DNA from: Streptomyces wedmorensis
GTDB lineage: Bacteria; Actinomycetota; Actinomycetes; Streptomycetales; Streptomycetaceae
Assembly: GCF_000716445.1 (NCBI RefSeq)
Contig: NZ_JNWK01000003.1
Location: 62,001 to 126,000, forward strand
Length of the DNA: 64,000 nt
Direction of reading: 5' to 3'
Positions 38,026 through 44,401 of the stretch are shown piece after piece. Position numbers and translations under genes: made by a program. Position 1 is the first letter of the stretch. The number at the start of each line of letters is the position of its first letter. The notes under the pieces were generated by a model. The model had not been told where the DNA came from. It made no database searches and saw only the letters and a list, made by a program, of their open reading frames with translations.

Positions 38026-39204
38026 CTAGTAGACCGGCTTCTCGGGCTCGATCTGGTGGACCCAGCCGATCACGCCGCCGCCGACGTGGACCGCGTCCGC
38101 GAAGCCCGCGGACTTGAGCACCGCGAGGACCTCGGCGCTGCGGACACCCGTCTTGCAGTGCAGGACGATCCGCTTGTCCTGCGGGAGGTCCTGGAGGGCG
38201 GTGCCCATCAGGAACTCGTTCTTCGGGATCAGACGCGCGCCCGGGATCGAGACGATCTCGTACTCGTTCGGCTCGCGGACGTCGATGATGTCGATGTTCT
38301 CGCCCTCGTCGATCCACTCCTTGAGCTGCTTGGGAGTGATCGTCGAGCCGAGCGCCGCCTCCTGGGCCTCCTCGGACACGACGCCACAGAAGGCCTCGTA
38401 GTCGATGAGCTCGGTGACGGTCGGGTTCTCGCCGCAGACCGCGCAGTTGGGGTCCTTGCGGACCTTGACCTGGCGGTACTGCATCTCCAGGGCGTCGTAG
38501 ATCATCAGGCGGCCGACCAGCGGGTCGCCCACGCCGGCCAGGACCTTGATGGCCTCGGTGACCTGGATGGAGCCGATGGACGCGCACAGCACGCCCAGGA
38601 CGCCGCCCTCGGCGCAGGACGGGACCATGCCCGGCGGCGGGGGCTCCGGGTAGAGGCAGCGGTAGCAGGGGCCGTACTCGGACCAGAAGACCGAGGCCTG
38701 GCCGTCGAAGCGGTAGATCGAGCCCCAGACGTACGGCTTGTTCAGCAGCACGCAGGCGTCGTTCACCAGGTAGCGCGTGGCGAAGTTGTCCGTGCCGTCG
38801 ACGATCAGGTCGTACTGGCTGAAGATGTCCATCACGTTCTCGGCTTCGAGCCGCTCTTCGTGGAGGATCACGTTCACGTACGGGTTGATGCCGAGCACGC
38901 TGTCGCGCGCCGACGCGGCCTTCGAGCGGCCGATGTCGGCCTGGCTGTGGATGATCTGGCGCTGGAGGTTCGACTCGTCGACCTCGTCGAACTCCACGAT
39001 GCCGAGCGTGCCCACGCCGGCGGCGGCCAGGTACATCAGCGCCGGCGAGCCGAGGCCACCGGCGCCGACACAGAGCACCTTGGCGTTCTTCAGCCGCTTC
39101 TGCCCGTCCATCCCGACGTCCGGGATGATCAGGTGGCGGGAGTACCTGCGGACCTCGTCTACGGTGAGCTCGGCAGCCGGCTCGACCAGGGGTGGCAGCG
39201 ACAC
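38026..39204 (-). CDS. moeZ: MoeZ adenylyltransferase/sulfurtransferase
   Basis: A 392-residue two-domain protein. The N-terminal MoeB/ThiF domain has GAGGLG (47-52), the conserved SNLQRQ segment after DEVDE, and two zinc CxxC pairs (CYRC and CAVC). The C-terminal rhodanese domain has LHCKTGVRS with the sulfur-carrying Cys near 350. MoeZ adenylates and thiocarboxylates sulfur-carrier proteins (MoaD, ThiS, CysO type), so it links to moaE at 3.7 kb. The GTG at 39202-39204 has GGAG 5 nt upstream. Syntenic with Rv3206c. Confidence 0.95.
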   Translation of the reverse strand: MSLPPLVEPAAELTVDEVRRYSRHLIIPDVGMDGQKRLKNAKVLCVGAGGLGSPALMYLAAAGVGTLGIVEFDEVDESNLQRQIIHSQADIGRSKAASARDSVLGINPYVNVILHEERLEAENVMDIFSQYDLIVDGTDNFATRYLVNDACVLLNKPYVWGSIYRFDGQASVFWSEYGPCYRCLYPEPPPPGMVPSCAEGGVLGVLCASIGSIQVTEAIKVLAGVGDPLVGRLMIYDALEMQYRQVKVRKDPNCAVCGENPTVTELIDYEAFCGVVSEEAQEAALGSTITPKQLKEWIDEGENIDIIDVREPNEYEIVSIPGARLIPKNEFLMGTALQDLPQDKRIVLHCKTGVRSAEVLAVLKSAGFADAVHVGGGVIGWVHQIEPEKPVY

Positions 39205-39267
39205 GGGGACTCCGGTTGTCGGTATGTCAGTACGGTTGTTCTCCCCGTAACACTGCCACGCCCCTTC

Positions 39268-40011
39268 TCATTCCGAGACACCCGGTCCGATCCGCGAGAC
39301 GATTTCGTCCCAGTAGCCGGGCAGCGTGTGAAATTGGTCGCTTTGTCCCGGGCGGCCGGGGCGGTCCGTGAAGAAGATCGTTCCCGCCCCCTGCCAGCGC
39401 GCGATCCGCAGGGCCTCGTCCAGGTGCGTGCGCGGGACCCCGTGCACGAGGTGGACGAACTTCGCCTCCGCGTGGTCGGCGGTCCACTCGGCCACCTGCG
39501 ACCAGCGGTAGTCCACCCAGGAGCCGGAGAAGGTCACCAGCTGGTCGGCGACCTCGGCGTACCCCGGGTGCGGGTGGGTGCCGTGGCCGAGGACGAGATG
39601 GGCCTCGCCGCCGAGGACCGCCTCCAGGGTCGCCGTGACCCGCCTCGTCCCGGCCAGGTCGGCCCGGTCCGCGGGGGCGCGGTCCAGGTAGAAGCCGTCC
39701 ACCTTGTACCAGTCGAGGAAGCGGTGGGCGTCCGAGACGATCTCGCCGAACGGCCGGCGGCCGTGGTCGGCGTCCAGGTGCCCGAGGACCCTGACCCCGG
39801 CGTTGCGGAGCTTTCCCGCCGCCTCCAGACAGTGCGGGTCGGGCCGGCTCCCCGGGCCCTCCGCCACGTTGAGCACCGCCCAGTGCACCGGGGTCCCGGG
39901 CCGCGTCAGCTCGGCCCACTCGACCGGGGCGAGCAGCGGGTGGGCGTAACCGGGGACGCCCACGCCGAGCGCCTGCACGGCCCCCGTGGCCGTGGTCGTC
40001 AGATGCGACAC
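39268..40011 (-). CDS. Spherulin-4 family (GH135-like) glycosidase
   Basis: A 247-residue TIM-barrel protein of the spherulation-specific family 4. Landmarks are VPGYAHPL, HWAVLNVAEGPG (about 43-54) and WYKVDGFYLD (101-110), in which Asp110 takes the place of the catalytic acid of GH135 Sph3; the following residue, often Glu, is Arg here. No signal peptide is seen, so an intracellular or unusual export route is implied. The GTG start overlaps the epimerase stop by 13 bp behind GGAGG. It is the last gene of the exopolysaccharide-like operon. Sph3 enzymes cut galactosaminogalactan. Confidence 0.8.
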   Translation of the reverse strand: MSHLTTTATGAVQALGVGVPGYAHPLLAPVEWAELTRPGTPVHWAVLNVAEGPGSRPDPHCLEAAGKLRNAGVRVLGHLDADHGRRPFGEIVSDAHRFLDWYKVDGFYLDRAPADRADLAGTRRVTATLEAVLGGEAHLVLGHGTHPHPGYAEVADQLVTFSGSWVDYRWSQVAEWTADHAEAKFVHLVHGVPRTHLDEALRIARWQGAGTIFFTDRPGRPGQSDQFHTLPGYWDEIVSRIGPGVSE

Positions 40012-40970
40012 GCCGCCTCCATCCAGATGTCGGCGAGCGACTCCTCCAGATTGATCCGGGGCCGCCAGCCGAGCCGGTCGCGGGCGGTGCGGACGTCGGC
40101 CTGCTGCCAGGGGCCGCAGCCGTCGGGGTACGGGTAGGGCGCGGCGGCCAGTTGGTCGGCGATGGTCCCCTCGGTGCGGGGGGCGCCGATCATCGGGCGC
40201 TGCGCCAGACCGTGCGGGGCGTCCAGCTCGTGCAGGTTGCCGGAGTAGCCCGCGACCCGGGCGAGGACGGCGGCCGCGTCCCGCAGCCGGACCGCGCGGC
40301 CGGTGCCGATGTTGACGACGCCCTGGGCGGCGGAGAGCGAGGCCGCGTGCACGGCCCGGGCCACGTCCCGTACGTCGACGAAGTCCCGCTGCACGCCGAG
40401 GCCGCTGAGCTTGAGCTCGCCGTCCCCGGCCTGCATCGCCCGGCGCATCGCCTCGGCGAGCCGGCCGAGCGGGGAGCCCGCGGGCGTGCCGGGGCCGACG
40501 GGCGAGAACACCCGCAGGACGACGGCGTCGAGTCCCGAGCCGAGGACGAGTTCGGTGGCGGCCAGCTTCGACACCCCGTACGGGCCGCCGGGGCGGGGCA
40601 CGGCGTCCTCGGCGGTGGAGGAACCGGGCTGGCTCGGCCCGTACTCCGACGCGCAGCCGACCTGGACGAGGCGGGCGCCGCAGCCGCTGCGCCGCAGTGC
40701 CTCGCAGACGGTGGCGACGGCGACCGTGTTGTGCCGGGTGAGATCGCGCGCGCCGCCGCGGGTGGCGCCCGCGCAGTTGACGACGACCCCGGGGTGGACG
40801 GCGTCCAGGAAGCGGGTCAGCGCACCGGGGCTGCCGGACGCGAGGTCGAAGCGGACGTCGGCGTCGTCGCCCCGGCCGAGGGCGGTGAGGTGGACGGCCG
40901 GGTCGGCGAGCAGCCGGTCGGCGACGAAGCGTCCGATGAAGCCGTTGGCTCCGAGCAGTAGCACCCTCAT
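39999..40970 (-). CDS. NAD-dependent sugar-nucleotide epimerase/dehydratase
   Basis: A 323-residue extended SDR of the GalE/WcaG type. The nucleotide motif GANGFIG is at 7-13, the catalytic tyrosine-lysine pair in GPYGVSKLAATE (near 147-151), and RDFVDVRDVARAV is a typical later segment. It probably interconverts UDP-sugars. The ATG overlaps the stop of a 17-codon ORF (ATGA), so its translation is likely coupled. It lies between the polytopic membrane gene and the spherulin-4 gene, suggesting that it supplies the operon's sugar donor, for example by C4 epimerisation (inference). Confidence 0.85.
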   Translation of the reverse strand: MRVLLLGANGFIGRFVADRLLADPAVHLTALGRGDDADVRFDLASGSPGALTRFLDAVHPGVVVNCAGATRGGARDLTRHNTVAVATVCEALRRSGCGARLVQVGCASEYGPSQPGSSTAEDAVPRPGGPYGVSKLAATELVLGSGLDAVVLRVFSPVGPGTPAGSPLGRLAEAMRRAMQAGDGELKLSGLGVQRDFVDVRDVARAVHAASLSAAQGVVNIGTGRAVRLRDAAAVLARVAGYSGNLHELDAPHGLAQRPMIGAPRTEGTIADQLAAAPYPYPDGCGPWQQADVRTARDRLGWRPRINLEESLADIWMEAACRI

Positions 40971-41020
40971 CGTGCGGCCCCTTCGTGCCGACCGGCCGGT
41001 CCTTGGGATCGAGGGGTCAT
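40967..41020 (-). CDS. 17-codon leader ORF coupled to the epimerase gene
   Basis: A 17-codon frame (ATG at 41018-41020) with a strong AAGGAGAA site 8 nt upstream. Its stop overlaps the epimerase ATG (ATGA). The peptide is basic and polar (starts MTPRSQGPAGRH). The epimerase itself has no other good ribosome-binding site, so the short ORF may deliver ribosomes to it. A function for the peptide is not suggested. Confidence 0.55.
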   Translation of the reverse strand: MTPRSQGPAGRHEGAAR

Positions 41021-41178
41021 GGTCTTCGTTCTCCTTGCCAGGTGATGAGAGAGGTGACGGGGGGCGCCCGCGGCGTCGGCTCCGCGGGTGCCGGGGGTGG
41101 GTCGGCGGAAGTGTCCGAGGGGTGCCCGCCGCCGCGGTGGTCGCCAGGCGTGCGCGCGGGCGGCCCGCGGCGGGGGTC

Positions 41179-42651
41179 TCACGGGGTGGCGTGGGCCGAG
41201 GCCCGGGCGAGGGCGCCGGTCGCGTGGGCCAGCAGGCCGAGCGCGGCGGCACCGCAGACGAGGGTGGGTACGGCCCCGGCGCCCCAGGCCCCGACGAGGG
41301 CGCGCACCGGGGTGGCGAGTCCGTCGAAGCCGGGCAGCGGGACGCGGGCGGCGAGGACGCTCGCGAGGGCGAGGGCCTCGGCGGCGCAGGCGGCGGCGAG
41401 TGCCGAGGAGGCGGTCTCGGCGAAGCCGTGCACGGTGAGCAGTCGGGCGAGCAGCAGCAGCGCGCCGAGGGCCAGGGCGCCCGGGCTGAACGCGGTGGCG
41501 GCGAGCAGTGCGGTGAGGGCGAGCAGTTGGAGGGTCACGGTGCCGAGGAGCAGCGGCCGGGTCGCGGCGGCGAAGTCGGCCAGGCCCCGGCTGTCGGCGA
41601 TGCGGCGGCGCGCGCGGCGTGCGAAGAGGTGTGCGCACCAGGCGGCGGGGGCCACGGCGAGGGCGAGCCCGAGGAGGGGGCCGGGCGTGAGGTCCCAGGC
41701 ACCGTCCGGGCCGCCGCTGAGCACCTGCGTGAGCAGTCCGTCGCCGCCGAGCGCGTACGCGAGGAGCCACAGCGTCCAGAGCCGGGCGGCGGGTACGGCT
41801 CCGCCGTCGGGCACCCGGAACGGCCCCTGCCGGACGGCGAGGACCAGCGCCGCGCCGAGCGCGAGGACCGCGGTCGCCCCGACGGCGACCCGTGCCGCCC
41901 CGTACGCGAACGTCAGTCCCAGTCCCGCGAGTCCGGCGACGGCCCCGGGGGCGAGCACGGCGAGTGCCCAGGGGGCGGGGTCCCGCTCCGGGTCCGCCGC
42001 GGGCGCGGCCTTCTCGTGTCCGCGCGGCACGCGCGCGTACAGCTCCTCGGCGAGCGAGAAGACGTCCCGGTGCCGGAACCGCGCTGCGGTCCGGTCCGTG
42101 AACCCCTGCGCCTCCAGGCCGGCGGCGATCTCCAGTGGGTCCACGGCCCGCTCGCAGAGCTCCCGGTGGCGGTGCATCAGCACCTTGACGGGGTCGGCGT
42201 TGCCGCGCCGGGGGCGGGGGGCCGCGGCGCGTCCGCCCGGGGCCTCGGCGCCCGCCGCCCGCCCCCGCCACGCGACTCCCGGCAGCGGGGCGCCGGGCCG
42301 GTCGGCCGGTGGGGCGGTGAGCCGGTCGGGGCCACGCTCCGGGAGCGGTGTGACGGCCGCTTCCGGGGCGGCGGCTATCCCGGACGGCGCGGGGCCTTCG
42401 GGGGCCGGCGGACCGGCGGGGCCGGCCGGGTGGGCGGGTTCCGTCCGGTCCTCGTGGTCCGTGGGGCCGGCGTCGTCCCCGTGGTACGGGTCCGTCGGGG
42501 GCGGGGGTGCCGGGCTCTCGGGGGCGCGCAGGTCGAGGCCTGGCGGCGGGGTCGGGGCGGGCGTGCCGAGGAGGGCCTCGGAGCGGGCGTCCCAGGCTCC
42601 GGGGCTCGTCGGGGCGGCGGGGCCGCGCATGGGGGTGTCTCCTTCAGGCAT
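41179..42651 (-). CDS. Polytopic membrane protein of the exopolysaccharide-like operon
   Basis: A 490-residue protein. The first 140 residues are Pro/Ala-rich and unstructured; a short conserved cytoplasmic part follows (DPVKVLMHRHRELCERAVDPLEIAAGLEAQGFTDRTAARFRHRDVFSLAEELY, about 150-205); then about eight membrane helices run to the C terminus. The ATG at 42649-42651 has AGGAGG and overlaps the glycosyltransferase stop by 8 bp; an ATG at 42630 has its own GAAGGAG. By context it may export or polymerise the polymer, but I see no clear match to PelG or Wzx. Confidence 0.75.
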   Translation of the reverse strand: MPEGDTPMRGPAAPTSPGAWDARSEALLGTPAPTPPPGLDLRAPESPAPPPPTDPYHGDDAGPTDHEDRTEPAHPAGPAGPPAPEGPAPSGIAAAPEAAVTPLPERGPDRLTAPPADRPGAPLPGVAWRGRAAGAEAPGGRAAAPRPRRGNADPVKVLMHRHRELCERAVDPLEIAAGLEAQGFTDRTAARFRHRDVFSLAEELYARVPRGHEKAAPAADPERDPAPWALAVLAPGAVAGLAGLGLTFAYGAARVAVGATAVLALGAALVLAVRQGPFRVPDGGAVPAARLWTLWLLAYALGGDGLLTQVLSGGPDGAWDLTPGPLLGLALAVAPAAWCAHLFARRARRRIADSRGLADFAAATRPLLLGTVTLQLLALTALLAATAFSPGALALGALLLLARLLTVHGFAETASSALAAACAAEALALASVLAARVPLPGFDGLATPVRALVGAWGAGAVPTLVCGAAALGLLAHATGALARASAHATP

Positions 42652-44401
42652 CGGGACCTCCTGAGCCCGCGGTCACGGCCTTGTGCGTCCAGCTGCCCGG
42701 CACATGGGCCTCGGCCGGATGGGCGAAGGGCACGCCGTCCCCGGGGCGGTGGCGCACCGGCGCGTGGGAGAGGAGTTCGAGGTAGATGCCGCGGAACGCG
42801 GCGAGGTTCTGTTCGACGGTGAAGAGTTCGAGCGCGCGGGCGCGGGCGGCGGCGCCGAGCCGGTGGCGGCGCTCGGGGTCGCGGAGCAGCGCGAGGCAGG
42901 CGTCGGCGAGCGCCCGGGGGTTGCGCGGGGGGACGACGAGGCCGGTGCCGCCGATGATCTCGACGACCGCGCCGACGTCGGTGGAGACGGTGGCCCGCGC
43001 GCAGAACATGGCCTCGACGAGGCTGGCGGGGAAGCCCTCGACGACGCTGGAGAGGACGACGACGGCGCCGGAGGCGTAGGTGTCCTCCAGGGTGGGCGCC
43101 TCGGGGCCGCCGAGTTCCTCGAAGGTGACGGGGTTCTCGCCGACGGCGTGCGCGCCCGCGGCCTCGTCGGGGAAGAGCTGGGCGGCGAGCCCCTTGCAGT
43201 GCGCCAGGTACGCGCCGCCGCCGGGCTCGCGCACGGGCACGGCGACGATCCGCAGCCGTGCGTCGGGCTGCCGGGCCCGGATCTCCGCGAAGGCGTGGAG
43301 GAGGGCGATGAGGTCCTTGGCGGGCTCGACGCGGCCGACCCAGACCAGGGTGGCCGGGTCGCCGCTCTCCTCGTCCTCGCCGACCTCGGCGAAGCGGCCG
43401 GCGGCCATGCCGGGGTGGACGGTGCGGATGCGGTCCCGGTCGGCGCCGCACTTCTCCTGCCAGCGGCGGGCGTGGGCGTTGCCCGGGGTGAGGAGGGCGG
43501 CCTGCCGGTACGTCTCCGAGGCGAGGCGGCCGTGGAGCGCGGCGAGCAGGGCCCGCAGGGGTGCGGAGCGTTCGGCGCCGGCGGTCGAGAGGTAGTGGGA
43601 GCGGAGCCGGACGCCGTACTCGGTGACGAGGAGCGGGGTGCCGAAGAAGCGTTTGGCCAGCAGGCCGGGCAGCGCGGTGGTGCCGCCGGCGGCGGCGTGG
43701 CAGAGGTCGGCCGCGCCGAGTGCGTCCTCGGTGTACCAGTCGAGCGAGAGGGGGCGCAGGGCCCGCTCCAGGTGGTCGGCGAAGGCGAGGTGGTCGCGGA
43801 GTCCGGCGGCGGCCGCGCCCCGGCGCGCGCCCGGCGCGCGGCAGGCGGTCTCGAGGGTGCGGACGGCGTCGTCGGAGCGGAGCGCGCCGGGCAGTCCGCC
43901 CCGCTCGCGGGCGAGTTCGGCGAGCGCGTAGAGCCCGTCGGCGAAGGAGGCCGCGGCCGGATCGGCCGTGAGCGTCCGCGGCGCGGAGACGGACGAGGAC
44001 GCGGATCCGGGCGCGGACGTCGACGCGCTTTCGGCAGCGACTGCGGCAGCGACTGCGGAGCCGGCCTCCTGGCAGAGGCCGGTGGCGAGGGCGTGGAAGG
44101 CCTCGGTGAAGCGGCGCCGCTCGCGCCGGCCATAGGCGCGGCGGATGGTGCGGCCGTCGCCGAAGGCGGCTCTGTCGAGGCGGCTCTTCGGCGTGCGGTC
44201 CCCGTCGGGGCCCTCCAGGTCGGCGGTGCGCACGACGCGGGCGTTCGGGGGGAGCGGCAGCGGGGTGCCGGGGCGGCCGAGGGCGTAGAGGTCGAACTCG
44301 TGCCGGCCGAGCCCGCGCACGAGCCGGTCGCACCAGGGTCCGGACTCACCGGTGGCGTACGGGTAGCCACCCTCCGTCAGCAATCCGATCCGCACGAGCA
44401 C
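42644..44401 (-). CDS. PelF-like GT4 glycosyltransferase
   Basis: A 585-residue retaining glycosyltransferase. The N-terminal RIGLLTEGGYPYATGESGPW is the start of the PelF N-terminal domain (DUF3492). The GT4 C-terminal domain has WVGRVEPAKDLIALLHAF and SSVVEGFPASLVEAMFC, with donor-site Glu, then TDVGAVVEIIGGTGLVVPP. PelF builds the GalNAc-rich Pel polymer from UDP-sugars in other bacteria. Start at GTG 44399-44401 (another at 44395) behind GGGAG. It is first in an overlapping four-gene operon. Confidence 0.85.
   Translation of the reverse strand: MLVRIGLLTEGGYPYATGESGPWCDRLVRGLGRHEFDLYALGRPGTPLPLPPNARVVRTADLEGPDGDRTPKSRLDRAAFGDGRTIRRAYGRRERRRFTEAFHALATGLCQEAGSAVAAAVAAESASTSAPGSASSSVSAPRTLTADPAAASFADGLYALAELARERGGLPGALRSDDAVRTLETACRAPGARRGAAAAGLRDHLAFADHLERALRPLSLDWYTEDALGAADLCHAAAGGTTALPGLLAKRFFGTPLLVTEYGVRLRSHYLSTAGAERSAPLRALLAALHGRLASETYRQAALLTPGNAHARRWQEKCGADRDRIRTVHPGMAAGRFAEVGEDEESGDPATLVWVGRVEPAKDLIALLHAFAEIRARQPDARLRIVAVPVREPGGGAYLAHCKGLAAQLFPDEAAGAHAVGENPVTFEELGGPEAPTLEDTYASGAVVVLSSVVEGFPASLVEAMFCARATVSTDVGAVVEIIGGTGLVVPPRNPRALADACLALLRDPERRHRLGAAARARALELFTVEQNLAAFRGIYLELLSHAPVRHRPGDGVPFAHPAEAHVPGSWTHKAVTAGSGGPDA

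Follow-up and report, generated by a model that had tools for sequence, protein, structure and literature searches.

Four minus-strand genes at positions 39268-44401 of a 64,000-nucleotide stretch of a Streptomyces wedmorensis contig (NZ_JNWK01000003.1), referred to here at its full length as the window, encode a glycosyltransferase (GT), a membrane protein, a nucleotide-sugar enzyme of the short-chain dehydrogenase/reductase (SDR) type and a spherulin-4 protein. We tentatively read this operon as a vertically inherited, Streptomycetaceae-wide and diverged paralogue of a synthase cluster of the galactosaminogalactan (GAG) or Pel type that was remodelled into a glycan system of another kind, probably one that does not polymerise. 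Each of the four proteins shows class-wide changes at canonical sites, and because the parts have lost or changed residues and helices that such machines use, the operon probably does something else. A second, paralogous locus in the same genome served as the main point of comparison. All window features listed below lie on the minus strand, and no function was described for the operon in the literature found.

Survey of related genomes retained the best 80 of at least 532 relatives, so the named Streptomyces loci are those nearest to the query. The order GT, membrane protein, SDR, spherulin-4 and moeZ was complete in 69 of these 80, a contig end fell inside the operon in the other 11, and the complete operon was present in all 69 named loci having enough DNA, which bore out the expectation of the preliminary description, made from the window sequence alone, that the genes stay together in related genomes. 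That description had all four genes overlapping; their number, coordinates and strand stood, and overlaps of 8 bp (GT and membrane protein) and 13 bp (SDR and spherulin) were found, but the membrane protein and SDR genes are 208 bp apart, with a 17-aa leader open reading frame (ORF) in the gap. A further 14 family loci comprised 11 from eight other Streptomycetaceae genera and three from Streptomyces (L230-L232), two of the latter chosen for having escaped the spherulin search. At E <= 1e-10 a spherulin match was found in 280 of 295 Streptomyces genomes, second-locus copies counted in, and the SDR was present in 241 of 249 Streptomycetaceae genomes, which represent 15 of 17 genera. Gene order held within one genus is a poor sign of shared function, and the independent second locus is a better one.

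The ratio of non-synonymous to synonymous nucleotide substitution (dN/dS) was calculated against the window gene of each family, and the medians were 0.38 for the GT (68 loci), 0.47 for the membrane protein (69 of 71 loci, dS under 1), 0.12 for the SDR, 0.26 for the spherulin and 0.11 for moeZ (80 loci each), figures that are relative only since codon bias lowers dS in these genes. The values show purifying selection on all four operon proteins.

The paralogous second locus in this genome (L054; G000:C60:64000-83000) encodes an Agd3-like deacetylase, a PelF-type GT, a membrane protein of probable MOP fold, a spherulin-4 protein and, downstream of the spherulin, the only GH114 match of the genome (296.2 bits); no SDR was found there. 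It resembles the operons of actinobacteria described in PMC7229062, in which Agd3 (CE18) is accompanied by GH114 and spherulin-4. The deacetylase was classed by homology to the corresponding protein of another second locus (L060), which reached 26.9 bits with Pfam Agd3_CE (3.1e-6), just below the cut-off of 27.6, and had no PDB match to Agd3; Agd3_CE itself had no match in the S. wedmorensis genome at E 0.001, where the control was also silent. Used as query, the second-locus deacetylase found no match in the 64-kb window. Among the 30 second loci examined, a spherulin match occurred in 29 (all except L063), a GT in 28 and a deacetylase homologue in 28. Trees separated the spherulins of the window class (25) from those of the second locus (29) by one branch with support of 100/100, and 24 from 28 GTs by one branch with support of 100 in a quick tree, with a warning from the tool that long branches meet. 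One second-locus type (L056, L059, L185-L187, L192, L194, L196, L198, L201, L203 and L204) adds a LegB-like 4,6-dehydratase, a nucleotidyltransferase and an RMD-like SDR ahead of the spherulin and may make a polymer of a 6-deoxy(amino)sugar rather than GalNAc; a LegB-type reference had no solved-structure match at E 1e-40. Spherulin, membrane protein and deacetylase homologues of the second-locus kind were also observed at L188 and L189 (genomes G308 and G311), which represent two further families of the class.

In common with the Agd3 operons (PMC7229062) and the fungal GAG cluster (gtb3, agd3, ega3, sph3 and uge3), the window operon has a cytoplasmic GT, a multi-spanning membrane protein, a spherulin-4 protein and a nucleoside diphosphate (NDP)-sugar SDR. 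The kinship to Pel and GAG machinery that had first been drawn from these components, including a DUF3492 GT and a spherulin-4/GH135 protein, is upheld. Unlike those clusters, the window operon is without a deacetylase, GH114 and the acid/base Glu of the spherulin, its membrane protein is reduced, and sites in its GT and SDR are changed.

The spherulin-4 protein (39268..40011; 247 aa) was correctly placed by the preliminary description near the GH135 family, as it matched Pfam Spherulin4 at 5.5e-24 (85.4 bits against a cut-off of 30.2) and aligned with the Sph3 structure 5c5g at E 3.9e-6 over 218 residues. PMC10485009 and PMC12054363 attribute catalysis by Sph3 to Glu222 and an Asp, numbered Asp166 in the former and Asp196 in the latter, and mention Glu167 as well. 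Residues were mapped via the 5c5g alignment with an inferred numbering offset of 50, which placed Asp110, Arg111 and Ser162 of the window protein at the Asp, Glu167 and Glu222 sites. The window spherulin shares the family match and the nucleophile Asp with Aspergillus Sph3 (PDB 5c5g and 5d6t) and differs from it in the replacement of Glu222, the change of Glu167 to Arg and the lack of an evident secretion or membrane-anchor sequence. Across the 80 loci position 162 was S in 57, A in 6, T in 6, R in 6, C in 4 and N in 1, with Glu in none, and Asp110 was retained in 79; both catalytic residues were present in all 29 second-locus spherulins. Eight of the 14 further loci possessed the spherulin, with Glu at this position in one (L227) and A, C, L, N, S, A and S in the others; in the six without it, the SDR was followed by moeZ. 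L227 (G1059:C7:173000-189000), from another genus, combines a window-type operon with the spherulin Glu and an SDR Ser, so the altered copies can be set against a naturally occurring counterpart. With a median dN/dS of 0.26, the altered spherulin is maintained and not a pseudogene.

The absence of a signal peptide from the spherulin had been noted as odd. Hydropathy of the N-terminus (best 15-residue stretch, one protein per class) revealed no hydrophobic stretch in the window spherulin (1.09, against 2.6 for the second-locus deacetylase used as control), in agreement with that observation, but the second-locus spherulin has no hydrophobic start either, so a cytoplasmic spherulin seems to be normal in this lineage.

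The PelF-like GT4 glycosyltransferase (42644..44401; 585 aa, GTG start) matched DUF3492 at 1.4e-20 (74.6 bits against a cut-off of 23.3) and Glyco_trans_1_4 at 78.3 bits (cut-off 27). It fell short of the NCBIfam PelF model (NF038011) with 85.6 bits against 100, which the second-locus GTs tested cleared with 165.3 and 157.2 bits, so that its earlier designation as PelF-type holds for the DUF3492 domain and not for PelF proper. Proteins from three PelG-bearing actinobacterial loci, together with the second-locus GTs, served as PelF reference and have a GGVS loop followed downstream in the protein by EHG. In the window GT the donor loop reads TGESGPW (Glu19) and Tyr262 is present, where the reference proteins have Gly and His, while the EX7E motif (455 and 463), Arg357 and Lys362 are retained. 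By analogy with GT4 structures, the loop position is predicted to hold the donor diphosphate and the His to contact the donor sugar. Among 68 window-class GTs, the site of the second loop Gly was E in 46, D in 17 and Q in 3 (two were unresolved) and the His site was Tyr in 67, whereas among 28 second-locus GTs the loop Gly was retained in 27, with one unresolved, and the His in all. The EX7E Glu pair and the Lys were retained in 68/68 window-class GTs and the Arg in 66/68. The further loci supplied 13 GTs, in which the loop position was E in 6, D in 5, R in 1 and G in 1, and the His site was Tyr in 11 and His in 2.

The membrane protein (41179..42651; 490 aa), a relative of the second-locus flippase of probable MOP fold, was unmatched in both Pfam and NCBIfam at E up to 1. 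It has a disordered start and a conserved helical N-domain, and its AlphaFold2 model shows eight membrane-length helices, matching the count of about eight given originally; the second-locus homologue has 12 long helices. Compared with the MOP superfamily flippases (MurJ, WzxE and MATE), which have two lobes of six helices, the modelled protein resembles a flippase reduced from 12 to 8 helices with most of the N-lobe gone. Foldseek returned no match for the window model at E <= 0.001 and one for the second-locus model (MATE, 7.0e-4), and a viral library gave no match for the latter. Kinship of the flippase to PelG was considered and rejected: when 21 membrane proteins from second loci were set against five PelG proteins of actinobacteria as profiles, the probability was 0.1%, and the flippase is therefore called MOP-like by fold. 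PelG (PF16933) had no match in the S. wedmorensis genome at E 0.001, with a positive control in Thermotoga, in accord with the PelG absence reported earlier, and PelD (PF16963) had none in this genome either, where its control was silent too. Partial PelG-family matches (profile positions 322-445) were observed in 22 of 101 Streptomyces genomes, eight above the cut-off (L206-L213); these matches are probably another MOP protein. With respect to the Gram-positive pel operon pelDEADAFG (PMC7112168), the window GT is related to PelF, but it lies below the PelF cut-off, no PelA-type deacetylase adjoins it and PelG is unmatched in the genome.

The NAD-dependent sugar-nucleotide SDR of the epimerase/reductase family (39999..40970; 323 aa) shows the highest conservation among the four proteins, with a median identity of 90.1% against 65.0, 57.9 and 74.5% for its neighbours. 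The original label of sugar-nucleotide epimerase is supported as far as an NDP-sugar enzyme is concerned (Pfam Epimerase, 4.4e-37), but the protein scored 34.4 bits with GalE TIGR01179 (cut-off 262.3) and is nearer to a reductase. Its first solved relative in a profile search was the RMD-type GDP-6-deoxy-D-lyxo-4-hexulose reductase (PDB 2pk3; 88.6 bits, E 4.5e-24), against 50.2 bits for UDP-Glc 4-epimerase, and the second-locus SDR ranked likewise (117.8 versus 77.9 bits, three rows). Judged by sequence, the similarity to 2pk3 is too low for naming the substrate. Tyr131 and Lys135 were retained in 94/94 copies. The site four residues ahead of Tyr110 (Cys106), the presumed equivalent of the catalytic Ser position in GalE, was Cys in 93/94, with Ser in L227, and Ser in 14/14 second-locus SDR copies; 2pk3 likewise differs from the window SDR at this Ser site.

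Ahead of the SDR, the 17-aa leader ORF (40967..41020) has its own AAGGAG site, and its TGA overlaps the SDR start codon as ATGA in 89/89 loci scored. The second SDR codon is a rare AGG or AGA in 89/89 loci, whereas these codons make up 89 of the 2484 other Arg codons in the gene, which is good evidence that the overlap is selected; the leader ORF is predicted to be translationally coupled to the SDR. An inverted repeat, CCCGCGGAGCCGACGCCGCGGG (41067..41088), lies upstream of the leader ORF, and its core with a GCCGAC loop was found in 55 of 89 orthologs. Rfam identified no family on the operon strand of the gap before the SDR; its only match there, to dauA on the opposite strand, was sub-threshold at 26.3 bits (gathering 45).

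Downstream, moeZ (adenylyltransferase/sulfurtransferase; 38026..39204) always adjoins the operon and was considered as its fifth member. This was rejected, and moeZ is judged to be a separate transcription unit, because a predicted SigR-like promoter of the form GGAAT-N18-GTT (39249..39274) precedes it and spans the last codons and stop of the spherulin gene. The pattern with a spacing of 18 was present in 80/80 Streptomyces and 14/14 further family loci, and a loose version had 8 matches over both strands of the whole window. Such a promoter would constrain the last codons of the spherulin. The window moeZ is presumably the ortholog of SCO5178. SCO5178 (moeB) is listed among NdgR targets in PMC4340878.

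In the rebuilt system that we tentatively favour, the SDR would make an NDP-sugar, for which a 6-deoxy(amino)sugar reduced at the 4-keto group is more likely than UDP-GalNAc, as suggested by the LegB-like and nucleotidyltransferase neighbours in one second-locus type. At the membrane, the GT, which retains the Glu, Arg and Lys residues but has an altered donor loop and His site, would transfer this sugar to a limited acceptor; the eight-helix half-flippase would act as its platform there and would not extrude polymer. The cytoplasmic spherulin would bind, but not cut, the glycan or an intermediate, and moeZ would operate as a separate unit.

Alternatively, and rather unlikely, the GT, half-flippase and spherulin could form a regulatory pseudo-enzyme complex that senses or holds a glycan or nucleotide sugar and controls another system, such as the second locus or the wall sugar supply, leaving the SDR as the only enzyme. 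This would accommodate the genus-wide changes at canonical GT and spherulin sites, the loss of the flippase N-lobe under purifying selection on all the genes, and the far better conservation of the SDR, but it sits poorly with the invariant EX7E Glu pair and Lys, and Pfam detected no known sensor domain at E up to 1. The view first put forward, that the operon is active in the synthesis, export and trimming of a polymer of the GalNAc type, using parts that differ from those of known pel clusters, is improbable. DUF3492 and Spherulin4 scores above cut-offs, conserved gene order and homology to Agd3-type clusters speak for it; against it stand a spherulin acid/base Glu missing from all 80 loci, the lack of an adjoining deacetylase or GH114, an SDR that is not GalE-like, N-lobe loss and the GT donor-site changes, and the picture is a better fit for the second locus. 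A decaying polymer machine in which the SDR and the leader ORF alone remain necessary, perhaps for supplying the second locus, whose simpler type lacks an SDR, would explain why the spherulin is gone from six of the 14 further loci and the GT was not found in one of them, but is very unlikely given dN/dS well below 1 for all genes, the spherulin match in nearly all Streptomyces genomes (second-locus copies included) and substitutions that are class-specific rather than scattered.

In summary, a genome that holds a more canonical second locus and a modified core copy offers a matched pair for comparison, through which it can be asked what GH135 proteins, PelF-type GTs and flippase lobes do once their usual chemistry is gone. 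It is possible, if doubtful, that a whole exopolysaccharide machine was turned here into a pseudo-enzyme complex at the cytoplasmic face or towards new chemistry, its four proteins having altered canonical active-site or transport features in concert, with a non-cutting glycoside hydrolase as its glycan-binding subunit. It is important to note that domain names alone would misannotate the core copy as Pel or GAG synthesis, and that this core operon belongs to one of the best studied bacterial families.

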